A DNA stretch of 21,692 nt. Source: a virus. How positions within the stretch are numbered: position 1 is the stretch's first letter; each line of letters begins with the position of its first letter. The stretch lies in the IMG/VR virus record IMGVR_UViG_3300028161_000038, positions 1-21,692 of that record; one strand, given 5' to 3'. The notes below the pieces were generated by a model. It was not told the origin of the DNA and did not search any database. It was given only the letters and a program-made list of their open reading frames with translations. Of this stretch, positions 10 through 13,996 are shown in pieces. The position numbers were made by a program, and so were the translations under genes.

Positions 10-351
10 TTGACTAATTTAGACAAAAGACAGATTAAGTTTATAGAGTCTATGGCTTTGACTATGGGTCACATTACTAATTCTTGTCGGGCGTCAGGTA
101 TTACTAGGCAGACATATTATAATTGGATAGATAAGAATCCTGATTTCGCTGTTGCTTTAGAAAATACAGAGTGGGAGTTTCAAGATGATACAGAGAATGT
201 ATTACGACAAAAGATTGCAGATGGTGAGTTGGGTGCTATTACTTTTTCACTTACTAAAACTCACCCTAAGTATAGGTCAGAAAGTCAACCTAAAGTTCAG
301 GTGAACATATTAAATAAACTGAATGAACAGAAGGAAATATACCAAGATTAA
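10..351 (+). CDS. terS: Terminase small subunit (probable)
   Basis: Probable small terminase, which recognises phage DNA and hands it to the large subunit for packaging. The 113-residue reading has an N-terminal helix-turn-helix (about residues 18-45, including CRASGITRQTYYNWIDKNPD) of the kind seen in phBC6A51-type phage proteins, followed by an acidic helical middle and a PKYRSES segment typical of small terminases. The start shown is TTG at 10. The frame is open to the left edge with no stop, so the gene may begin outside the window. It lies first in a packaging order, upstream of a split large terminase. The assignment rests on the helix-turn-helix and position; a transcription regulator is the main alternative. 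Confidence 0.7.
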   Translation: MTNLDKRQIKFIESMALTMGHITNSCRASGITRQTYYNWIDKNPDFAVALENTEWEFQDDTENVLRQKIADGELGAITFSLTKTHPKYRSESQPKVQVNILNKLNEQKEIYQD

Positions 352-854: not shown

Positions 855-1670
855 ATGGTTAAGGAGAAAAACAACGGAACTAAAAGGTTTGTAGAAGATA
901 ACATTAGAATTGTCAACAAAGAAGGGGAGGAGGTTGACTTTATCTTAAACAACATACAAAGACAATATCTAACTATAGATACTAGTAATAGGGATATTGT
1001 GTTAAAAGCTAGACAGCAAGGATTCTCATCACTTATACTAGCTAGGTTTACAAAAGATTTTATCCTAAAAGATAACTCTCTTTCTGTTGTAGTAGCAGAC
1101 GGGAAGGATAACGCAACAGACTTGCTAAGTAGGGTTAAACAGTTCTTAAGTTCATACGAGAGGAAAAACAAGTTCAAAATACCCCTAAAATATAACTCTA
1201 AATATGAGCTACAGAATCAAGCTAATAATGCTAGGTACATAATCGGTACAGCTCAAGACCAGCAGTTTGGTAGAAGTAAGACAATAACTAATTTACACCT
1301 ATCAGAAGCAGCTTTTTATCCTGACTTTGAGAAACTTATGGCAGGAGCATTGCAGGCAGTAGTGCCTAGTGGAAATGTGGTTATAGAAACTACGGCTAAC
1401 GGGTTCAACGCCTTCAAAGACTTCTGGACACGCTCAGAGAAGGGAGAGACAGGTTTTACACCATTATTCTATCCAGCTTCTAAGTTCTATGATAGTGAAT
1501 ACCTAGCTCAGAAAGAGAAAGAGTTAGGCAGGTATTACAGACAAGAGTACCCAGAAACAGCACTAGAAGCATTTATTACTAGTGGTGATTGCTTCTTCAA
1601 CTTACTCGCGCTCGAAAAGTATCTAGCAGAGGTAAAAAAGCCAATAAGTAAAAACATAATCTATGTATAA
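855..1670 (+). CDS. terL: Terminase large subunit, ATPase part
   Basis: This is the N-terminal ATPase half of a large terminase, the motor that drives DNA into the prohead. In 271 residues it shows the Walker-A-like KARQQGFS (residues 51-58), a Walker B with catalytic glutamate in NLHLSEAAFY (E151), and the coupling motif ETTANG (178-183). RYYRQEYPETALEAF (about 226-240), a hallmark of the ATPase-nuclease linker, lies near the end. The protein stops at 1670, shortly after the linker, with no nuclease domain. The nuclease half is encoded separately at 2145-2816, in the same reading frame but after a 161-residue gene. No ribosome binding site precedes the ATG. The family normally has both domains in one chain of about 430-550 residues. 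Confidence 0.9.
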   Translation: MVKEKNNGTKRFVEDNIRIVNKEGEEVDFILNNIQRQYLTIDTSNRDIVLKARQQGFSSLILARFTKDFILKDNSLSVVVADGKDNATDLLSRVKQFLSSYERKNKFKIPLKYNSKYELQNQANNARYIIGTAQDQQFGRSKTITNLHLSEAAFYPDFEKLMAGALQAVVPSGNVVIETTANGFNAFKDFWTRSEKGETGFTPLFYPASKFYDSEYLAQKEKELGRYYRQEYPETALEAFITSGDCFFNLLALEKYLAEVKKPISKNIIYV

Positions 1671-2148
1671 AAAAAAGATAGAGTGGTCAGAAGTAGAAGA
1701 ACATTTCAGAGACGCTGTCGACTATATTAGCAACCACGAGTATGTGTCTGATGAGGGGTTAGAAAATGAAATAAGAAAGACTGTCAAGCACGGTCAAGTT
1801 GTAATGTATCCAGCTGGTGCAACTATGGTTATGAAGAAAAGAAGTAAGCCAGTAGACTATGGTGATATTAAAAAGATTTACGAGAATACTTATGAAATAA
1901 TAGATACAGATAGCTATAGCCACGACTCTGTTGACCCTCTAAAATATACGTGTAGAGATTGTTCAAACAGAATATGGGGAGAAGATATTTATTTATGCAA
2001 GACTGTTCATACAAATATTGATGGGAGACCTTTTGTTAGAAGTGAGTATTATTGTAAAGAACATTGTGACGTTGAAGATGAACCAGGTGTAAAGGACAGC
2101 ATTAAAGAGGTCAAAGATAATGCTGAAAAAATGTTAAGTATCCTATGA
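1663..2148 (+). CDS. Cysteine-rich protein inserted between terL halves
   Basis: I do not recognise this 161-residue protein. Its C-terminal part has a probable metal-binding cluster: C97-x2-C100-x11-C112-x18-C131-x3-C135, with H134 nearby. The N-terminal two thirds are charged and probably helical. It overlaps the end of the terL ATPase ORF by 8 bases and the start of the nuclease ORF by 4 (ATGA), so translation of the three is probably coupled. No HNH, GIY-YIG or LAGLIDADG motif is visible, which argues against a simple homing endonuclease. It could be an inserted accessory gene or a DNA-binding partner that bridges the two terminase parts; the latter is inference. Confidence 0.75.
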   Translation: MYKKKIEWSEVEEHFRDAVDYISNHEYVSDEGLENEIRKTVKHGQVVMYPAGATMVMKKRSKPVDYGDIKKIYENTYEIIDTDSYSHDSVDPLKYTCRDCSNRIWGEDIYLCKTVHTNIDGRPFVRSEYYCKEHCDVEDEPGVKDSIKEVKDNAEKMLSIL

Positions 2149-2816
2149 ACTACTACCAATACAGACCTATAGAACAGGGTGAAGTTCTTATTGTTGGTGG
2201 TGACTGTTCAGCAGGTGGGGGAGATTATTCTGTAGCTCAATTCTATTCTAGGACTAAGACTGACTTTCCTATGGTGTATCGTACTAAACAGCTAGCGTCA
2301 GTAATGACTCAAGAACTATACCCAGTACTAAACAAGCTATACGAGAGAACTGGTGTACGACCAATAATTGGCTATGAGCGTAACAATGGGGGAGTGTTTG
2401 AAATGGATAGAATGGCTACACTCAACAGAGAGAATAAGTTTGAGATATTTAAGATGCCGAGTTATGGTTCAGTCGATAGTGCAGAAAAGAATGCAGTCAA
2501 ACTTGGTTGGGATACCAACTCTGCTACTCGCCCTGAGATGCTAGCAAATCTAAAAGAGTGGGTGGATAATCATTTAGGCAACATTTATGATAAGGTTACA
2601 GTAGATGAGTTATTCAGCTTCATAGTCGTACAAACTACTGCTTCGTGGAAAGCTCAAGCTGAAAGTAATGCTCACGATGACCACGTTATGTCTATGGCTA
2701 TAGCTCTAAAAATGGCTGAGATAGTACCAGATAACTACGGAGCGAAGGAGAGACCACCAGTATTTGTGGGTTATCAAGACGGATTCGGTGGAGTAAAAGT
2801 TCCAATATACAAATAA
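2145..2816 (+). CDS. terL: Terminase large subunit, nuclease part
   Basis: This is the C-terminal RNase H-like nuclease of a large terminase, which cuts concatemeric DNA at the start and end of packaging. Acidic metal ligands are visible in the expected order: D20 in GGDCSAGGGDYS, E78 in IIGYERNNGG, and D178/D179 in AHDDHVMSMAIAL. The 223 residues make a complete nuclease domain but contain no ATPase motifs; those are in the ORF at 855-1670. The start is the ATG overlapping the upstream stop (ATGA). The first residues, NYYQYRPIEQGE, look like the ordinary linker just before the nuclease domain, so the break falls at a natural domain border. All active-site residues seem intact, so this is probably functional rather than decayed. 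Confidence 0.9.
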   Translation: MNYYQYRPIEQGEVLIVGGDCSAGGGDYSVAQFYSRTKTDFPMVYRTKQLASVMTQELYPVLNKLYERTGVRPIIGYERNNGGVFEMDRMATLNRENKFEIFKMPSYGSVDSAEKNAVKLGWDTNSATRPEMLANLKEWVDNHLGNIYDKVTVDELFSFIVVQTTASWKAQAESNAHDDHVMSMAIALKMAEIVPDNYGAKERPPVFVGYQDGFGGVKVPIYK

Positions 2817-2818
2817 AT

Positions 2819-3595
2819 ATGACAATAAATAAAGTTCTAATAACAGGAGCAGGGGGGACAGTAGGTAGGGCTTTTGTTCGCTTGTTAACTAGTAAAAAAA
2901 TAGATGTAGTGGCTGTGGATAACAACGAGTGGGCACTAGCTGAAGTTAAGAATGATTATCCTGATATAACGATAGATTTAAGTTCATTCGCTGATGTAGA
3001 TTTAGACTACTATACACCAGATGCAATTATACATTGTGCTGCCTATAAGCACGTGAACTTTGGGGAAAAGGAGATAGATGAGTTTGTGAGAAATAACGTT
3101 GTCTATACCTCTAAGCTCTTTAGGACTACTCATAGATACGGCATACCTACATTGTTCATCTCAACAGATAAAGCAGTAGAGCCTCTAAGCGTGTATGGGT
3201 ATACTAAGGCAATAGGTGAGGCACTAGCTAAAAAGTATAATCACTCTGTTGCTAGAATGGGTAATATCCTGTCTAGTTCTGGTTCAGTAATACCTACTTG
3301 GGAGAAACAGATAAAAGATAACTTGCCTATAACAATCACAGACCAGAGAATGACTAGGTTCGTGATAGAAGATTATGATGCAGCTAGTCAAATATGGCAC
3401 AAGTTTATCCAACACGATAAGTTCATAGTGCCTGAAATGAAAGAGGTACGGCTGATGGACTTACTAGCAGAGGTGCTGAAACGACACGGGTATAACAAGC
3501 CAGAGGATTATAAAGCTGGAGTGGTAGAAATAGGAATAAGACCAGGAGAAAAGCTAAAAGAAAAAGTAAAATGGGATTGGGAGAATAACTTATGA
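2819..3595 (+). CDS. CapD/PseB-like nucleotide-sugar dehydratase/epimerase
   Basis: An NAD(P)-dependent short-chain dehydrogenase of the polysaccharide-synthesis (CapD/FlaA1/PseB) group. These act on UDP-N-acetylglucosamine-type sugars, giving 4-keto-6-deoxy products. Seen in 258 residues: Rossmann motif GAGGTVG (10-16), HCAAYKHV (72-79), STDKAVEP (115-122) with Y126-x3-K130 as the catalytic pair, RMGNILSSSGSVIPTWEKQI in the substrate region, MTRFVI, and GIRPGEKLKE near the end. It is shorter than most relatives (about 330 residues) but keeps the key motifs. It begins two bases after the terminase stop without a Shine-Dalgarno sequence, and its end overlaps the next gene by 4 bases. The exact sugar cannot be told from sequence. 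Confidence 0.85.
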   Translation: MTINKVLITGAGGTVGRAFVRLLTSKKIDVVAVDNNEWALAEVKNDYPDITIDLSSFADVDLDYYTPDAIIHCAAYKHVNFGEKEIDEFVRNNVVYTSKLFRTTHRYGIPTLFISTDKAVEPLSVYGYTKAIGEALAKKYNHSVARMGNILSSSGSVIPTWEKQIKDNLPITITDQRMTRFVIEDYDAASQIWHKFIQHDKFIVPEMKEVRLMDLLAEVLKRHGYNKPEDYKAGVVEIGIRPGEKLKEKVKWDWENNL

Positions 3596-4134
3596 ACGAC
3601 TGGAGTAAATCAACATTTAATCACGGCAGCACTAGACCAGAATGGTTTGAACTGATAGCTAGACTAACAGAGGGCAAGAAGTCAGTACTAGACTTGGGTT
3701 GTGGCATTGGCAGGTTTACTAACGCTTTTAAGAAAATGTCCTATCTAGGAGTAGATATTTCACGCAAGAATATCAAGATAGCTGAGGGATTATATCCACC
3801 ATACCCAAAAAGAAAGTTTGTTGTGGCAGATATAACTGACTGGGATACTGACAGAGTGTTCGACATAGTCTTTAGTTGGGTAAGTTTGCAGCATATAGAC
3901 CCTCTTTATTTCGAGGACTTGATGAAAAGTGTTGGGAAGTGGGGTAAGTCTGTTATGTTTATGGAGCATACAGCTGAGATGACGGCACCATCTGAGTATA
4001 TGTGGGCTCACGACTATAAGAAATATCTTGATATAACATTCAAAGAGCCGATTGTCGAGGGTTCAGAACTAATGCTAGGTAAGGTTAAAAAGGAGTATTT
4101 ACCAGAGTATGGGAAAAAAGATAAAAAGGTATAG
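3592..4134 (+). CDS. Class I SAM-dependent methyltransferase
   Basis: A small Rossmann-fold methyltransferase of 180 residues. Motif I is VLDLGCGIGRF (32-42), followed by LGVDIS (about 52-57, acidic ribose-binding residue), VVADITDW and FDIVFSWVSLQHID, the usual motif order of Methyltransf_11/25-type enzymes. The start has a good Shine-Dalgarno sequence (GGGAG, 3579-3583) and overlaps the upstream stop by 4 bases. No DNA-target-recognition domain is evident. Its position within a run of sugar-nucleotide genes suggests a sugar or glycan as substrate; this is inference. DNA or small-molecule methylation is not excluded. Confidence 0.8.
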   Translation: MNDWSKSTFNHGSTRPEWFELIARLTEGKKSVLDLGCGIGRFTNAFKKMSYLGVDISRKNIKIAEGLYPPYPKRKFVVADITDWDTDRVFDIVFSWVSLQHIDPLYFEDLMKSVGKWGKSVMFMEHTAEMTAPSEYMWAHDYKKYLDITFKEPIVEGSELMLGKVKKEYLPEYGKKDKKV

Positions 4135-4327
4135 TAATTATACAAAAGAAGACCAGAACAAAGATGAAGGAAAGATGGTTACTGCTATGAAACGTAAAGG
4201 CTTTATAACAGGCAATACAAGATTATATGTTCTAGCTAGTGAGTTTAAGGGGGCTGATGATGTAGAGAAAACTAGATTGTGGTTGCAACACCCAGAGTTC
4301 AAAAACTTTTTAGAAGGTAAAAAATAA
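4109..4327 (+). CDS. Small basic hypothetical protein
   Basis: A 72-residue lysine-rich protein that I do not recognise. It overlaps the methyltransferase gene by 26 bases in another frame. The N-terminus (GKKIKRYSNYTKED) is strongly basic; the C-terminal half looks helical (KGADDVEKTRLWLQHPEF). No signal peptide, membrane segment or metal-binding motif is visible. The overlap layout and unbroken frame fit the tight packing of the cluster and support a real gene. Confidence 0.55.
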   Translation: MGKKIKRYSNYTKEDQNKDEGKMVTAMKRKGFITGNTRLYVLASEFKGADDVEKTRLWLQHPEFKNFLEGKK

Positions 4328-4329
4328 AT

Positions 4330-4389
4330 ATGGATAGAATTATTATAGGCACTAAGCAATCAATAAAACTTAGTGCAGAAAGGGAGTAG
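4330..4389 (+). CDS. 19-codon micro-ORF before UDP-sugar dehydrogenase
   Basis: ATG at 4330 opens a 19-residue frame (MDRIIIGTKQSIKLSAERE) ending TAG at 4387-4389, three bases before the next ATG. Its last codons contain the AGGGAG ribosome binding site of the dehydrogenase gene, so translating it would cover and then release that site. It could be a leader peptide for coupling, or chance. There is no independent support. Confidence 0.2.
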   Translation: MDRIIIGTKQSIKLSAERE

Positions 4390-4392
4390 CTG

Positions 4393-5142
4393 ATGAAAGC
4401 AGCTATCATCGGGAATGGAACTGTTGGCAAGGCTCTTGGTAAAGCTATGGGGATAACTCCCTATGGTCCAGGAGATGAGCCAATCAGCGCTGATGTGGTA
4501 GTTATCTGTGTACCGACAGAAACCAAGGAAGGAGTACACGACCAGAGTCAAGTTGAACAGGCAATATCAAGAGTAGAAAATGCGAAGATTATTGTTTTAC
4601 GTTCTACTGTTTTACCAGGTACTTCTGACAGACTAGCCAAAGACCTAGATATTCCTCTTGTTTTCGTACCTGAATATGGGTTTGAGGCAACGATGGAAGA
4701 AGACTTAGCACACCCTAGGTCGTTAATACTGGGCGTTGGTGAAGGTGTAACGCTTGAATTGGTAGATTTGGTTATTACTACCATGCCTCGCTCTAACTCT
4801 GTTAAGAGTATGTCCCGAGCTTCTGCCGAGTTCGCTAAGTACTTCGCTAATATCTGGGGCTGTTCTCAAGTGACACTTGCTAATTCGCTGTATGACTGGG
4901 TGATAGCTCAAGGGTACGATGACTTAGTATACAGGGATGCTGTTTTAGGAGCACTTCTTCACGGGAATGTACCTGAATGGGGTTGGGAGATAACTCACCA
5001 AGGCACGCGCGGTTACGGGGGAAAGTGTCTTCCTAAGGACATACAGGCAGCTATAAGTCAGTATTCACATGAATTGTGGAGACAGTTCGAAATTCAGAAT
5101 AGGGAGTTGAGAAAAGAGGTAATTGACAATGACCTTACATAA
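4393..5142 (+). CDS. UDP-glucose/GDP-mannose dehydrogenase-like enzyme, short form
   Basis: An NAD-dependent four-electron dehydrogenase oxidising C6 of a nucleotide sugar to a uronic acid. Seen in 249 residues: GNGTVG (7-12) for NAD binding, VVVICVPTE (36-43), RSTVLPGT (70-77), FVPEYGFEATMEEDLAHPRS (91-110), the central-domain helix with FAKYFANIWG (147-156), and the catalytic GYGGKCLPKDI with C212, K215 and D216. All catalytic residues are present. The C-terminal UDP-binding domain of the normal enzyme (about 400-450 residues) is absent, so substrate binding or dimerisation must differ. A good Shine-Dalgarno sequence (GGGAG, 4382-4386) fixes the start. It is the last gene before a strong terminator. 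Confidence 0.85.
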   Translation: MKAAIIGNGTVGKALGKAMGITPYGPGDEPISADVVVICVPTETKEGVHDQSQVEQAISRVENAKIIVLRSTVLPGTSDRLAKDLDIPLVFVPEYGFEATMEEDLAHPRSLILGVGEGVTLELVDLVITTMPRSNSVKSMSRASAEFAKYFANIWGCSQVTLANSLYDWVIAQGYDDLVYRDAVLGALLHGNVPEWGWEITHQGTRGYGGKCLPKDIQAAISQYSHELWRQFEIQNRELRKEVIDNDLT

Positions 5143-5146
5143 CCTT

Positions 5147-5176
5147 AAGAGGGATACTACGGTTTCCCTCTTTTTT
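5147..5176 (+). terminator. Rho-independent terminator
   Basis: AAGAGGGA (5147-5154) pairs perfectly with TCCCTCTT (5165-5172) around a 10-base loop and runs into TTTT (5173-5176). It begins four bases after the dehydrogenase stop and ends five bases before the aminotransferase ATG. It should reduce transcription from the terminase and sugar genes into the aminotransferase. Confidence 0.85.
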
Positions 5177-5181
5177 ACAAA

Positions 5182-6156
5182 ATGAAAATACAATTTAGCA
5201 AACCAACAATAGGACAGGAAGAAATAGACGCTGTAGCTAGAATAATTTCATCAGGGTGGCTTGCGGCAGGGGCAGAGACAGAAGCGTTCGAGAAAGAGTT
5301 CGCAGAGTATGTGGGGGTTAAATACGCAATCTTTACAAATAGCTGTACGAGTGCGCTAAAGATGGCTTATAAATACGTATTGGAGGATATGGAAGGTGTG
5401 AGCAGGGTGTTGGTTCCAAAGAATACATTTTGTGCCACTTATTCTGCTGCTGAAGAAATTGGATTATCAACAGTCTACTTAGAGGACTTCAAGAACAGGC
5501 AAGCCTTCCTGAAGTATGTACATAGATTCCCAGATATAGAACGTGTCAACGTACACTATGGTTCAGTTCAAGATACAACCCCCTGTCTAATAGAGGACTC
5601 CGCTCACCGTATTGAACCGAACGACCCTCTGGTAGGATTGATACGCTGCTATTCATTTTACGCAACTAAGAATATGACTACTGGTTCGGGTGGTATGTTT
5701 GTAACTAACGATAAAAAGATTTATGAGAAAGCTAGGTTATACTGGAAAGATGGGATTGACAAATCTACAAAAGATAGAGCGAAAGGGGACTTGGATTATA
5801 CTGTTCGTGTTATGTCTGGAGGCTATGATGGTAACGATATTGCTGCTGCTATCGGGCGTGTGCAGCTCAGAAAACTCCCAGAGTTCAACAGGAAGCGTAA
5901 TGCCATTGTGCGAAAGTATAATCAAGCCTTCGGAACGAAGTGGACAGGAAACCACCTTTACCCCTACTTTCTAAGTTCAGAGGCTGAGCTAAGAAAATTC
6001 ATAAAGCACATGCAAAGCAATGGAGTTAGCGTAGGTTGGCACTATCCTGGCACAGGCTGGTTGGGTGTGAGTTTGCCTTTATACCCAGACCTGACAGAGG
6101 AAGAAGTAAAATACATAATTGATAGGACCAACGCTTACAAAAATACTACAGGTTGA
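5182..6156 (+). CDS. DegT/DnrJ/EryC1-family sugar aminotransferase
   Basis: A PLP-dependent aminotransferase that converts keto groups on nucleotide sugars to amines. Its 324 residues include SGWLAAGAETEAFEKEFAEY (24-43), TNSCTSALKMAY (52-63), the PLP-ring aspartate in LIEDSAHR (D139), and the Schiff-base lysine in SFYATKNMTTGSGGM (K163), followed by GYDGNDIAAAIGRVQL. It is slightly shorter than most family members (about 370). It would be the partner of the CapD-like enzyme, aminating the 4-keto product, or of a 3-keto uronic acid from the dehydrogenase. The start lies only five bases after the terminator T-run and has no Shine-Dalgarno sequence, so read-through or an unseen promoter is needed. 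Confidence 0.87.
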   Translation: MKIQFSKPTIGQEEIDAVARIISSGWLAAGAETEAFEKEFAEYVGVKYAIFTNSCTSALKMAYKYVLEDMEGVSRVLVPKNTFCATYSAAEEIGLSTVYLEDFKNRQAFLKYVHRFPDIERVNVHYGSVQDTTPCLIEDSAHRIEPNDPLVGLIRCYSFYATKNMTTGSGGMFVTNDKKIYEKARLYWKDGIDKSTKDRAKGDLDYTVRVMSGGYDGNDIAAAIGRVQLRKLPEFNRKRNAIVRKYNQAFGTKWTGNHLYPYFLSSEAELRKFIKHMQSNGVSVGWHYPGTGWLGVSLPLYPDLTEEEVKYIIDRTNAYKNTTG

Positions 6157-6481
6157 AAAGGTAGGATTTGAGAACTACTCAACCGCAGTTATGCAGATGT
6201 TTGAGCCGTACATAAGGTTGTATACCTTCAAATACAAAATACCTGGCTTAGATAGAGATGATTTAGCACAAGAGCTACGATTGCACCTATGGATAAAACT
6301 TAATATGTATGACCCTAGGAAGTCTTCTCCTGTTACTTGGGCTAATACTGTAATGCGTAACAGGTGTCATAACTTATATGCTGCTAGTCAGATGAACAAA
6401 AGAAAAGCACTCAACGTTTCTGAGCAGATAGAAGATGTACTGGATAATGTATATCTAGTTGATGGCATACAACAAAAATAA
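6119..6481 (+). CDS. Sigma-70 region-2-like protein, no region 4
   Basis: A small RNA polymerase sigma-like protein of up to 120 residues. The core matches sigma-70 region 2: YIRLYTFKYK (31-40), GLDRDDLAQELRLHLW (43-58, corresponding to the region 2.2 DL-Q-E helix that binds the polymerase clamp), MYDPRKSSPVTWANTVMRNR (63-82, regions 2.3-2.4). After residue 95 only about 25 residues remain, so the -35-binding region 4 is missing. This recalls T4 gp55, which reads -10-only late promoters. The start is uncertain: TTG at 6119 overlaps the aminotransferase by 38 bases, while ATG at 6191 would drop 24 residues; neither has a clear Shine-Dalgarno sequence. Its 3' end contains the first TGTATATCTA element, directly before the portal gene. 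Confidence 0.65.
   Translation: MIGPTLTKILQVEKVGFENYSTAVMQMFEPYIRLYTFKYKIPGLDRDDLAQELRLHLWIKLNMYDPRKSSPVTWANTVMRNRCHNLYAASQMNKRKALNVSEQIEDVLDNVYLVDGIQQK
6445..6457 (+). promoter_or_regulatory. TARTGTATATCTA element, copy 1 (portal)
   Basis: TAATGTATATCTA lies inside the 3' end of the sigma-like gene and ends four bases before the portal ATG (6462). No Shine-Dalgarno sequence lies between. It shares GGATAATGTATATCTA with copy 2. If it is a -10-type late promoter, transcription would begin at about the start codon, giving a leaderless portal mRNA. Confidence 0.6.
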
Positions 6482-8339
6482 GAAGGACTCTAAGAAAAGC
6501 GATTTGTCGTCTTCTGGAAAGAAGATGGTTAAGGCTGGTGAGAGTAGAATATCTGAGTATAATACAGAGTATAAACGTTGGCTAGGGGTACTAGAAACTT
6601 ACCACAGTAATAGGTTTAATCGTAATTATAAGCAATATACTTCTTACACCCAAACGAAAGAAACAGATACAAGAATCTCTGACCCAGTGGCTCCTGAACT
6701 TGTGGAGAAGGTTGTACAGAAGATGTTTGAGAAAGACCCTAAGTTCTTCTCACTAGCTAGAGGCAAGACATTACCGAGAGAAGTTACAGACATAATGGCT
6801 TCTTCTGCCTATTATTACTGGACAGCCCCAGAGAGAATTGCTGGTTCAGGCACTATGAGAGCCAAGATGAAGTCTTTAGGTAGAGAGTTTTGTGTAACTG
6901 GAAATGTTGTAGTAGAAACATTTTACAATCAGAAATCTGAGACACCAGATATGCGTATTTTACCGATAGAAGATGTAATTTTTAACCCTACTAAGACACT
7001 TAAAAGCTCCGAAAGGTATTATATTAGACAATATGTTTCACTGGACTACTTGGAGGATAAGAAAGAGGTAACAGAGAATGGCAAGGTTGTATCTGGGATA
7101 TTCGAGAAGAAGGCTATAGATGCAATAAAAAGAAAATACAAGGACTCACCTGGATTTACTCAAGACCCTAATGGAAATAATATCAATCGTTCAGGCTCAG
7201 ATGCTTACGAGAAGCCTGTGGAAAAGATATTGCTAATAACTATCTGGGAAGGTAAACACTGTGTTCGTATAGCCGATTGGGAACAGATAGTCCAAGAGTA
7301 TGACAATGAGATATTAGATGACCACCCACTAGACTTTGCCACAGATATAGAGGTTCCTAAAGAGCCGTATGCTTTCTCATTCTTAGATTTTATAAACGGT
7401 CTTACACATGCAAAAGATTTACTGATTAATCAGACAGTTGACTATGGTACTAAATTACTTAACCCACCATTATTCGTTGACCCTACTGTATCTCCAGTGA
7501 ACAAGGCTACGCTGTCCAATGCTTATAGGGCTGGTGGAATAGTCTTTGCTACAGCCAAACAGGCTCAGCACCAACCTATGCCAGCACTACCACAGGCAGG
7601 ATTTCAACTATTAAGTTACCTACAACAGCGCTCAGAGTCAGTTTCTGGTATTGGTGCTTATCTATCAGGTGTACCTAATCAAGAATCAGATAAGACAAGA
7701 GGTACTAAAGGCGGAATACTAGCACTTATGGCTCAGGCTGTTACTCCAGTTAAAGACAGACAGTTGAATATAGAGGAATCTATCATCGAGCCAATGGTTA
7801 ACAAGTGGCTGAAGTATGCTGGTGCTCTTATGAGTGCGAATGAGGACAAATACATCTTGATAACTGGTTCAGAGCCAAGGTGGGTACAAGTTACAAAAGG
7901 ATTACTAACAGGAAAGATTAAACTAGAAGACCTCTATGTGGCTGAGATTATAGATGATGAAGACCTTGAGTTCATGGTCCAAGAGTTATTAGAACAGGGG
8001 AAAGACCCAGAAACAGAAATAGTTATAGATACAGACTGGATAGTTCGTGTTGAAACAGGTTCACTAGCCGAGATAGACACAGAACAAGAATTAGAGAACT
8101 TACAGAGTTGGGCTAAGTTTGCCATAGAAATGGGTCAACAAATAGATACCAAGAAAGTCGCTATAGAGGCAGCATTAAGAGCAAATATAAAGGAGCCTGA
8201 ACAGTACTTACTAGATGCTGAGGAGCAACCACAGATAGACCCTAATACAGGTCAACCTATTATGCCACAGCAAGAGGGACAAATGCCTGTTGCACCACAA
8301 GAACAACAACTACCACCAGCCCCACCGCTATTCGGATAA
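6462..8339 (+). CDS. Portal protein (P22-like)
   Basis: The portal is the twelve-subunit ring at one capsid vertex through which DNA enters and leaves and to which the terminase and tail attach. The 625-residue chain fits the P22-like portal class: an N-terminal clip/stem preceded by a lysine-rich leader, ISDPVAPELVEKVVQKMFE (about 68-86), a conserved PYAFSFLDFINGLTHAKDLL segment, LLNPPLFVDPTVS, and the QQRSESVSGIGAYLSGVPNQ loop. A Q/P-rich tail (EQPQIDPNTGQP to LPPAPPLFG) ends the chain. I chose ATG at 6462 over the in-frame TTG at 6459 because the ATG sits four bases after the element, as in two other genes. It follows the sigma-like gene and overlaps it by 20 bases. Confidence 0.9.
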   Translation: MAYNKNKKDSKKSDLSSSGKKMVKAGESRISEYNTEYKRWLGVLETYHSNRFNRNYKQYTSYTQTKETDTRISDPVAPELVEKVVQKMFEKDPKFFSLARGKTLPREVTDIMASSAYYYWTAPERIAGSGTMRAKMKSLGREFCVTGNVVVETFYNQKSETPDMRILPIEDVIFNPTKTLKSSERYYIRQYVSLDYLEDKKEVTENGKVVSGIFEKKAIDAIKRKYKDSPGFTQDPNGNNINRSGSDAYEKPVEKILLITIWEGKHCVRIADWEQIVQEYDNEILDDHPLDFATDIEVPKEPYAFSFLDFINGLTHAKDLLINQTVDYGTKLLNPPLFVDPTVSPVNKATLSNAYRAGGIVFATAKQAQHQPMPALPQAGFQLLSYLQQRSESVSGIGAYLSGVPNQESDKTRGTKGGILALMAQAVTPVKDRQLNIEESIIEPMVNKWLKYAGALMSANEDKYILITGSEPRWVQVTKGLLTGKIKLEDLYVAEIIDDEDLEFMVQELLEQGKDPETEIVIDTDWIVRVETGSLAEIDTEQELENLQSWAKFAIEMGQQIDTKKVAIEAALRANIKEPEQYLLDAEEQPQIDPNTGQPIMPQQEGQMPVAPQEQQLPPAPPLFG

Positions 8340-10636: not shown

Positions 10637-12253
10637 ATGTCGAAAAAAGACAATCCTTTTTCCAAAAAGCAGAAGTTTTTTTCTGTTATATCCCCTTGTT
10701 ATGGGATGACCTATAAGTCCTTAGAGAAAAATGCTGAAACGCTAAACGAACAGGAGTATAAAACATTTGAGTGGATAGTTGTGTTCGATGGAAAGCATAA
10801 GCGTGGTGCTAAGGTAATGGACAAGATAATCAAGAAGTATCCCAAAATGGATATTAGCTATTATCATTTGCCTAAGCACAAAGGAGCACCAGCAGCTAGA
10901 AACTTTGGTGCTACTAAAGCTAAGGGAGAAATCTATGTGTTCTTAAATGCAGATAACTATCTTTATCCAGAAGCTCTTAGAATATGGGCTGGAATATACG
11001 AACAAAAGCCCGAAGTAAATCGTGTTTGGGGACTATACGACATAATTACTGCTGACGGGACTAAAAGACCAGTAGGACAAGTACCACTAAATCAAGACGG
11101 TAGTGTCTGGTATAAGGCGTTCAAGTATTCTAATTTCTGTGATAGCTCATTTCCTATTAGAAAGTCTGCATACATAGAGTGGGATGAGAGCGTTAAGTCT
11201 TTGCAGGACTGGGATTGGGCAATAAGACAGTTGAAACGAGATAACTTTGAGGGGAAGGACTGGCATTACATTCATCAATCATTCTTTGCAGCAGAAGATG
11301 CTAAACCAGGTGGATTGTCAGATGATTCACACCAGAACTGGATAGAGAGGACAGGTTACATAAAGAAAAAGAACGGACTAAAGAAATCAGATATGGTTAT
11401 AACCTCTCTAGGAGCCTCTAATCACGCTTTCCCGTTAGTGGATATGCTAGGAGCAGACTATCTACCCATGCCATCTTTCAAGAAACATGAGTACAAGACT
11501 GTTTACCTGATAGGGTTTTATACACAGGAAGACGCGCAACATCCGTATGTTACGAAAACACACATGGATGTATTTGCTAATGCACCTAAAGCCACTAAGA
11601 TTATCCACTGGATTGGGTCAGATATTCTACAACTACGCTGGAATTGTAGTTTTGAGAAGATAAAAGCACTAAAGGAGTGGTTTAAGAAAGAAAAGATAAT
11701 TCACCTAGCCGAAGCAAAGTTTACACAAAAAGAATTAGCAGAGGTTGGTATTAAATCTATGGTTGTACCATTACCACCTAAATCTCTGTTTAAGCCAATG
11801 CCATTACCAGAGAAGTTTTCAGTAGCCGTATATGACCCTGGAGAGAACTTTGACTCTATGTATAAGAAAGAGTTTGTGATGAGTATAGTGAAGGCTATGC
11901 CAGATATTCAGTTCTATTTCTTTGGAGATGACAGTCGTAAAGGATTAGATGGAGATAATTTCAAACATATAGGATACATAGATTATAATAAATGGTTCCC
12001 TAGATTCTCTGCTAACCTGAGAATTACACTGCATGATGGTTTACCATTAACTCCTATACAATTTATGACTGCTGGTAGAAATGCCATAGTGACTGTTCCT
12101 CTAAAGGGCGCATACACCGTGAAGCAGAATAGAAAAGAAATCGTAAGTGCTATAAGAAAAGCGAAGGAGAAACCTATAAATCTAAAATATAGTAAGTATT
12201 GGCGTAAGGTTATGGACACTAGAAAGTTTATCAAAACAATTAAATCTCTATAA
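10637..12253 (+). CDS. Two-domain glycosyltransferase (GT2-like plus GT-B-like)
   Basis: A 538-residue protein with two apparent sugar-transfer domains. The first (about 12-240) is GT-A/GT2-like: SVISPCYG (16-23), VVFDG (48-52), KGAPAARNFG (82-91) and FLNADN (102-107) where most relatives have DxDD, so the metal site keeps D106 but two positions are Asn. It also has QDWDWAIRQL. The second (about 285-538) resembles the C-terminal part of a GT-B transferase: IIHWIGSDIL, VPLPP, YFFGDD, HDGLPLTPIQFMTAGRNAIV. The second domain may be catalytic, with the first modified or inactive. It has a good Shine-Dalgarno sequence (ACGGAG) and directly follows the capsid gene, suggesting it modifies virion or host-surface glycan. 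Confidence 0.78.
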   Translation: MSKKDNPFSKKQKFFSVISPCYGMTYKSLEKNAETLNEQEYKTFEWIVVFDGKHKRGAKVMDKIIKKYPKMDISYYHLPKHKGAPAARNFGATKAKGEIYVFLNADNYLYPEALRIWAGIYEQKPEVNRVWGLYDIITADGTKRPVGQVPLNQDGSVWYKAFKYSNFCDSSFPIRKSAYIEWDESVKSLQDWDWAIRQLKRDNFEGKDWHYIHQSFFAAEDAKPGGLSDDSHQNWIERTGYIKKKNGLKKSDMVITSLGASNHAFPLVDMLGADYLPMPSFKKHEYKTVYLIGFYTQEDAQHPYVTKTHMDVFANAPKATKIIHWIGSDILQLRWNCSFEKIKALKEWFKKEKIIHLAEAKFTQKELAEVGIKSMVVPLPPKSLFKPMPLPEKFSVAVYDPGENFDSMYKKEFVMSIVKAMPDIQFYFFGDDSRKGLDGDNFKHIGYIDYNKWFPRFSANLRITLHDGLPLTPIQFMTAGRNAIVTVPLKGAYTVKQNRKEIVSAIRKAKEKPINLKYSKYWRKVMDTRKFIKTIKSL

Positions 12254-12951
12254 TGAAAAACCCACTTATATCTGTGTGCATGCCGAACTATAATAAAGTT
12301 GAATATCTAGCAGAAGCGATAGAGTCTGTACTAAATCAAACATATAAGAACCTAGAGCTAGTAATCGCTGACGATGGTTCTACAGATGGTTCGTGTGACC
12401 TACTAGATTGGTACGAAAATAAGGATAAAAGAGTAAATGTTATAAAAACTAAGAACAATGGGATAGCAGTGGCTAGAAATACGGCTTTAGCTCGTGCTAG
12501 AGGAGAGTTTGTGGCAATAATGGATAGTGATGACCTTATGAACCCAAAACGTCTTAAACTCTCTCTCAAGGCTATACAGGGGTATGACTTCGTATACGGA
12601 CCATACTTACAGGCAGATGAGAATGCTAAGGTATTTGGTGTCTATGACCCACCTAAGAAAATAACAAAAGAGAACGAAATACATATTTTAGATGGTAACT
12701 ACCCTCATGTTACGATAATGGCTAAACGAGCTTGTTTTGTTCAGTGTAAGTATAGAGAGGAATTAAACGTGAATGATGATATGGGTTTAATGTTGGATTG
12801 GTACAAAGCAGGTTTTGTTGGCAAGAGGGTGAACGAGGCTCTGATGATTGTCAGGTACCACAAAGGTAGTGTTTCAGCTACTAGGGATAAGTTAGTAAAA
12901 AAGATTACTGAAAAATTAGTAAAGGAGTTTAATGCCATCAAAAATAAATAA
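12253..12951 (+). CDS. Family 2 glycosyltransferase
   Basis: A classical GT-A enzyme moving a sugar from a nucleotide donor. The 232 residues show SVCMPNYNKVEYLAEAIESV (7-26), NLELVIADDGSTDGS (33-47), NNGIAVARNTALARARGEF (68-86) and the metal-binding DSDD (91-94), with an acceptor-side NDDMGLMLDW (about 174-183) in place of the usual ED catalytic base region. All key residues are present. The start overlaps the upstream stop by one base (TAATG) with no Shine-Dalgarno sequence, indicating translational coupling. No membrane segment is seen, so it is a cytoplasmic enzyme. Confidence 0.9.
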   Translation: MKNPLISVCMPNYNKVEYLAEAIESVLNQTYKNLELVIADDGSTDGSCDLLDWYENKDKRVNVIKTKNNGIAVARNTALARARGEFVAIMDSDDLMNPKRLKLSLKAIQGYDFVYGPYLQADENAKVFGVYDPPKKITKENEIHILDGNYPHVTIMAKRACFVQCKYREELNVNDDMGLMLDWYKAGFVGKRVNEALMIVRYHKGSVSATRDKLVKKITEKLVKEFNAIKNK

Positions 12952-13996
12952 GGTAGCAGCCATACTGAGGCAGGATACTGGCGTGGGGTACTATCGTCTA
13001 GGTCAGCCAACAATGTTTTTAGATAGAATTACCAAAGGGAAATGCCGTATTACTCCTTTTACTGGAAAGAATGAACCAGTAACTATTGGTCAAGAGGACT
13101 CAAAACTTGGGTGGAATGATACGACACTTATGAAACTTGCTCAAGATGCAGACGTTATCTGGACTAACATTGTCTATGACTACAACGAGATGATTAAAAT
13201 GTTAGACCTTAGAGAGTGGAGTGGTGCTAAGTGGGTAGTAGATATAGATGATAACCTATATGCTGTTTCCACAGATAACCCAGGGTCTAATAATACAAAA
13301 CTGCTTAGAGACAATTTTGAGCTATGTTTACGCCTTGCTGATGGTGTTACAGTTTCAGTCCCTACACTAAAAAAGCTATATGGTAACTTGAACAAGAATA
13401 TCTTTGTGATGCCCAACGGCACAGACTTAGACTGGTGGAAGAAGTTAAAAGTGAAAAGACATAAGGGTATTAGAATTGGTTGGAGGGGAGCTTATGGTCA
13501 CAAAGCGGATATTAACTTAGTACGACCAGTCATAGAGGAAATACAGAAAAACTACGACAATGTTGCTTTTGTGTCTTTTGGAGCAAAACCAACTTTTAAG
13601 ACAGAACATCACGAGTGGGTGGACTTCCTAAAGTTTCCAAAGAAACTAGCTTCACTCAACCTAGATATTGCCATTGTTCCACTAGTAGATAGTTCATATA
13701 ACAGGTGTAAGAGTAACCTTGCTATACAGGAGTTCTCAGCTCTAAAGGTCCCTGTTGTGGCTAGCCCAACACTTAACCAAAAGAATATGCCCGTATTATA
13801 CGCTAGTACAAACCATGATTGGTACGAGCAACTTGTGAAACTAATAGAAACACCAAAGTTACGCAAAGAACAGGGTCAGAAGCAGTATAAGCATGTTAAA
13901 GATAAATATAGTATGAGTTTACTGGTTAAGCCATTATCAGAATGGCTGTCAAAACTACCACGAAGGAAAGATATAAAACCAAACCTCTCTCCCTAA
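12932..13996 (+). CDS. GT-B fold glycosyltransferase (GT4-like)
   Basis: A 354-residue GT-B transferase. N-terminal half: GVGYYRLGQP (17-26), where such enzymes bind acceptor, and VVDIDDNLY (102-110), common in phage and prophage glycosyltransferases. Then MPNGTDLDWW (160-169), the linker before the nucleotide-binding half, which has RIGWRGAYGHKADI (181-194) and PLVDSSYNRCKSNLAIQEFS (250-269) followed by ALKVPVVAS, the E-containing donor-phosphate region (E267). AAAGGAG upstream of the ATG supports the start, which overlaps the GT2 gene by 20 bases. The three transferases downstream of capsid form one translational unit and probably act in sequence on one glycan. Confidence 0.87.
   Translation: MPSKINKVAAILRQDTGVGYYRLGQPTMFLDRITKGKCRITPFTGKNEPVTIGQEDSKLGWNDTTLMKLAQDADVIWTNIVYDYNEMIKMLDLREWSGAKWVVDIDDNLYAVSTDNPGSNNTKLLRDNFELCLRLADGVTVSVPTLKKLYGNLNKNIFVMPNGTDLDWWKKLKVKRHKGIRIGWRGAYGHKADINLVRPVIEEIQKNYDNVAFVSFGAKPTFKTEHHEWVDFLKFPKKLASLNLDIAIVPLVDSSYNRCKSNLAIQEFSALKVPVVASPTLNQKNMPVLYASTNHDWYEQLVKLIETPKLRKEQGQKQYKHVKDKYSMSLLVKPLSEWLSKLPRRKDIKPNLSP

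Follow-up and report, generated by a model that had tools for sequence, protein, structure and literature searches.

The large terminase locus of a virus recorded in IMG/VR (IMGVR_UViG_3300028161_000038), of which positions 1 to 21,692 make up the 21,692-nucleotide stretch analysed here (the window), raises the question of whether a single terminase gene was broken by an inserted gene or whether the enzyme is encoded as two proteins irrespective of that insertion. Three ORFs follow one another on the plus strand: a stand-alone large-subunit ATPase of 271 aa (855..1670), an inserted ORF of 161 aa (1663..2148), and a stand-alone nuclease of 223 aa with an RNase H-like fold (2145..2816). The inserted ORF overlaps the ATPase stop by 8 bases (ATGTATAA, 1663..1670) and the nuclease start by 4 bases (ATGA, 2145..2148), while the ATPase and the nuclease share a frame and are separated by 474 bases of another ORF; this layout is as an earlier note on the same DNA had described it. 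The codon signature of the window was present in all three ORFs, in the frame given here only. Additionally, two other IMG/VR contigs were identical to the sequence over 6.1 and 7.8 kb, which speaks against a random assembly error at the terminase locus, even though they may have a site or project in common. Upstream, the small terminase subunit TerS (10..351, plus strand) was matched by phrog_4044 (8e-7), and the approximately 500 bases between TerS and the ATPase (352-854) contained no convincing ORF and had a fold z-score of -2.0; this segment had no Rfam match, was unchanged in both identical contigs, and had no similar sequence in the other loci.

Both outer ORFs were recognizable as terminase components. 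Among the PHROG profiles, phrog_2 (terminase large subunit; 6e-15) was matched by the ATPase and phrog_24361, a terminase profile, by the nuclease (6e-10); neither half had a match among the Pfam terminase models. When compared with solved structures, the ATPase family profile hit T4 gp17 (1e-10) and the nuclease profile hit the nuclease domain of RB49 gp17 (1.5e-10). The predicted structure of the nuclease (pLDDT 90.9) had T4 gp17 as its closest PDB fold, and the model indicates that the nuclease is a complete domain by itself. The ATPase ORF has the Walker A, Walker B, and coupling motif of an ASCE ATPase, with a deviant Walker A (KARQQGFSS), a Walker B (LHLSE), and an IETTANG motif, and the nuclease ORF has the D-E-D triad of an RNase H-like nuclease (catalytic D20, E78, D178/D179). 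The expectation that the catalytic motifs of both halves are intact was confirmed across 57-63 relatives, in which K51, R53, G56, and E151 of the ATPase and D20, E78, and D178/D179 of the nuclease were invariant. Against the nearest relative, L004, dN was 0.18 and 0.14 with saturated dS, indicating purifying selection. Each of 17 records examined carried one nuclease gene, and a second phrog_2 match was not found in any record searched, which argues against the split copy being an extra one, the relatives' records being metagenomic and none of them certified complete. A decayed terminase, or a sequencing or assembly error, might be suspected from the single window viewed alone; the two further identical contigs, the same architecture in approximately 78 distinct relatives, the invariant catalytic residues, and the purifying selection make this reading extremely improbable, and in substance it is refuted.

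To place the window among its relatives, approximately 130 loci were collected from alignments of both halves, classified with HMMs, and de-duplicated to 80 distinct terminases. The ATPase and nuclease were adjacent or overlapping ORFs in 63 of these, were separated by extra genes in 15, and were fused in only 2; L097, which has an internal break within the nuclease, and L083 were scored as adjacent. Thus, in 78 of the 80, the window included, two ORFs take the place of the single hinge-joined polypeptide of a canonical large terminase, and encoding the ATPase and the nuclease by different genes is the norm in this clade. Relatives without the insertion, which the earlier note had proposed to look for, include the nearest one, L004 (79% and 82% identical), in which two ORFs nonetheless encode the ATPase and the nuclease. 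In L004 and in L005/L006, these insert-free ORFs overlap by 8 bases and lie in different frames, and in L004, L005, and L113 the nuclease starts at the position where the inserted ORF starts in the window (1663..1670). Because L004 and L005/L006 lack the insert yet already have two ORFs, the comparison of these loci indicates that the split predates the insert. The proposal that the gene had been split by the inserted ORF was therefore not borne out, most relatives being, like L004, insert-free and yet encoding two overlapping ORFs in different frames. Parsimony on the ATPase, nuclease, and combined trees placed the split state at the root and required 15 changes; the trees were rooted at their midpoint, so the split root is provisional as to the state before the clade, and the cultured outgroups are single ORFs. 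The two fused terminases (L037 and L040) were nested inside the split clade on the trees and look like secondary fusions.

The frames and start sites at the junction bear on how the nuclease is produced. Relative to the ATPase, the nuclease lies in the +1 frame in most lineages, but the +2 frame (ATGA overlaps) and frame 0 also occur, the latter in L074 with two consecutive stops at the junction; with three relative frames, no single recoding event accounts for all lineages. The nuclease start codon was situated 1-8 codons ahead of a conserved RxYR motif, at 2-4 codons in 69 of 74 cases, and its position was alike in lineages with and without inserts. A Shine–Dalgarno (SD)-like motif preceded the nuclease start in 42 of 76 sequences, against a background of 19%, the sequences being related and not independent. 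Taken together, the junction architecture fits two separately translated proteins; frameshifting, an intron, and a broken gene do not fit it, as far as it can be read from the sequences.

Three lineages depart from this pattern. In the L095 group, L136, and L078/L142, no ATG, GTG, or TTG was present at the nuclease start, where ATC or ATA was found instead, and the ATPase ended with TAT CTT TAG or TAT ATT TAG, the former in the L095 group and L136. In prfB, CTT followed by a stop codon is prone to shifting. It is possible that these lineages use either initiation at a rare codon or +1 frameshifting. Where ATC takes the place of ATG, an SD-like motif precedes CTT by approximately 8-10 bases, and this distance would suit initiation better than a prfB-type shift. 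A general version of the frameshift reading, in which a programmed +1 shift yields a fused ATPase–nuclease in the insert-free relatives and the two-ORF appearance is only apparent, could draw on the mostly +1, seamless junctions and on the resemblance of TAT CTT TAG in the L095 group and L136 to the prfB site. It is nevertheless distinctly unlikely, considering the +2 and 0 frames, the tandem stops of L074, the conserved start codon and SD-like motif at the nuclease, and the initiation-like, not prfB-like, spacing where ATC replaces ATG; in the window itself, the two halves cannot be joined in this way across the 474 intervening bases.

Splicing was considered as another route to a single terminase. 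Introns and homing genes are known from phages, and HNH_3 genes occupy the same junction in three lineages, so the insert might be imagined as a self-splicing intron or homing element whose removal would restore one TerL. No intron family or known RNA element of Rfam was found in the window, at its junction or elsewhere, or in the 15 insert loci, and, in agreement with the absence of an obvious homing-endonuclease motif remarked on earlier, the insert had no significant HNH, GIY-YIG, or LAGLIDADG match in Pfam, NCBIfam, PHROGs, PADLOC, or PDB sequences. Nor would one continuous frame result from splicing, because the two ORFs of the insert-free relatives lie out of frame with each other; this difference in frames also speaks against a group I or II intron or an intein as the cause of the split. 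We consider the intron or homing-element reading very improbable indeed.

Regarding the insert itself, the five-cysteine cluster reported earlier was found as CRDC...C...CKEHC. Searches of IMG/VR, GenBank phages, the 50 related records, Pfam, PHROGs, NCBIfam, PADLOC, and PDB sequences returned identical copies only, and the gene was not found elsewhere in any of the 50 related records, a placement that would have spoken against the earlier proposal. A scan with a DNA pattern of the cysteine motif gave one further match (L146), which was rejected as a chance match. The predicted structure of the insert had a pLDDT of 38, too low to inform on its fold. No repeats flanking the insert were found; CTATG occurs at both of its edges and is too short to interpret. 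The insert is most likely a translationally coupled cargo (moron) gene and not a part of the motor, to judge from these comparisons. The opposite view, that its product is a third motor subunit, for instance a zinc-binding adapter bridging ATPase and nuclease, gains some appeal from the position of a translationally coupled gene between both others and from a CxxC...CxxxC cluster that could bind zinc. This third subunit is unlikely, since the closest relative, L004, does without the insert, no homologue occurs in the 50 related records, and in other lineages the junction holds different genes, mostly enzyme-like, including unrelated methyltransferases, HNH proteins, and an NTP transferase. The more far-reaching combination, in which ATPase and nuclease are never covalently joined clade-wide and the cysteine-rich insert of the window is a zinc-stabilised adapter replacing the hinge, is likewise decidedly improbable.

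The ATPase–nuclease junction is a site of repeated insertion by mostly unrelated genes. These include HNH_3 genes (L049, L111, L114), a NinG-like gene (L126), N6/N4 DNA methylases (L106, L128), a C5 methylase (L116), class I methyltransferases (L109 and the second gene of L111), an NTP transferase (nucleotidyltransferase; L131), a gene with a weak Cpn10-like match (L015), and inserts without an assigned family (L028, L039, L107, L118, and the singleton of the window); one more junction insert was present in L144, a contig of a bacterial genome. For example, L106 and L104 have nearly identical terminases and differ in the presence and absence, respectively, of the methylase gene. The HNH proteins of L114 and L049 were 65% identical, while their ATPases and nucleases were 42% and 49% identical, an excess over the flanking terminases that is indicative of horizontal transfer to one and the same position; no such excess was seen for the L114/L111 pair. 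When 80 HNH loci were examined, one was located beside this terminase (L149, which is the L114 record again), and the HNH family is therefore not confined to the junction. HNH genes are known near phage terminases, and HNH homing endonucleases are known; the HNH_3 genes that three lineages have here, with one pair closer than the flanking terminases, resemble that situation, whereas the insert of the window lacks an HNH signature. Most inserts, that of the window included, overlap both neighbouring genes by a few bases, and, because gene overlaps are common elsewhere in the window, these overlaps are no special evidence for coupling. In L126, the nuclease ORF (4912-6555) has 548 aa and, by eye, an apparent intein-like insertion directly after the catalytic HDD (HDD/CFIAGSLV...VHN/C).

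Other features of the window and its relatives were recorded alongside the terminase. The sequence TGTATATCTA occurs in five exact copies on the plus strand (6448, 8340, 13997, 18769, and 20970), in or beside gaps flanking late genes; with up to one mismatch, 8 matches were found, a number equalled in 1 of 100 shuffles, and the element is possibly a candidate late promoter. An ORF at 6119-6481 appeared sigma-factor-like by eye, and genes of sugar-nucleotide and glycosyltransferase type (an epimerase, a UDP-sugar dehydrogenase, a DegT aminotransferase, and a GT2 protein) were located amid the head genes (2819-6156 and 10637-13996). Two relatives sit in bacterial contigs, L141 (MGBO01000019.1) in a Roizmanbacteria MAG and L144 (JAFRKQ010000021.1) in a contig of 151 kb from a goat-gut bacterium. 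The hosts may thus include Patescibacteria, with misbinning being possible.

The locus thus resembles T4 and RB49 gp17 in having an ATPase and an RNase H-like nuclease in the same order with the same catalytic residues, and the break falls, as anticipated, at the position of the T4 gp17 linker. In contrast, gp17 is one polypeptide. In current models of headful packaging, a hinge inside one TerL chain links ATP hydrolysis to the movement of DNA, and gp17 divided artificially at the linker keeps both enzymatic activities but no longer translocates (PMC3012670, PMC9958956). A two-protein motor would therefore need another form of coupling. Relatives with a homologous ATPase in a single ORF are L037, L040, L055, Pseudoalteromonas phage PH1, and the Vibrio phages VPMS1 and D96a, with a homologous nuclease detected in L037, L040, L055, and D96a; these have one ORF of approximately 495-563 aa (L040 being a partial fragment) in place of the two found here. 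In actinobacteriophages, the TerL ATPase and nuclease are also annotated as separate genes; a clade-wide split with insertions at the junction, as in the present clade, is not known from them. A published description of this split-terminase clade was not found in the open-licence literature.

Overall, we regard it as probable that this is a two-gene large terminase, separately translated from one message and presumably working as a non-covalent motor, with the cysteine-rich ORF as a late insertion of cargo. The ATPase and nuclease would be translated separately via overlapping stop and start codons, the nuclease by re-initiation or from its own ribosome site, and the two proteins may then come together on the portal without a covalent link to form a functional packaging motor, their association presumably taking over from the interdomain hinge of T4 gp17. 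The 161-aa ORF would have entered late, as translationally coupled cargo between already separate genes, keeping the ATPase-side overlap and probably forming no part of the motor. Counted against this two-protein model are the lineages without a nuclease start codon (the L095 group, L136, and L078/L142), with their candidate +1 shift sites, and the two fused lineages. Of the earlier suggestion of a two- or three-component motor in place of a broken gene, the two-component part is upheld by the clade-wide state and the conserved catalytic residues and nuclease start, and the three-component part is not.

For annotation, full-length TerL models can miss such phages: both halves here escaped the Pfam terminase models. 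The clade also offers ATPase and nuclease subunits that can be expressed separately and, with its two-gene terminases, fused revertants, and junction insertions, provides a natural test of the need for a covalent hinge. If the split terminases work as two proteins, a covalent hinge would not be universally required.
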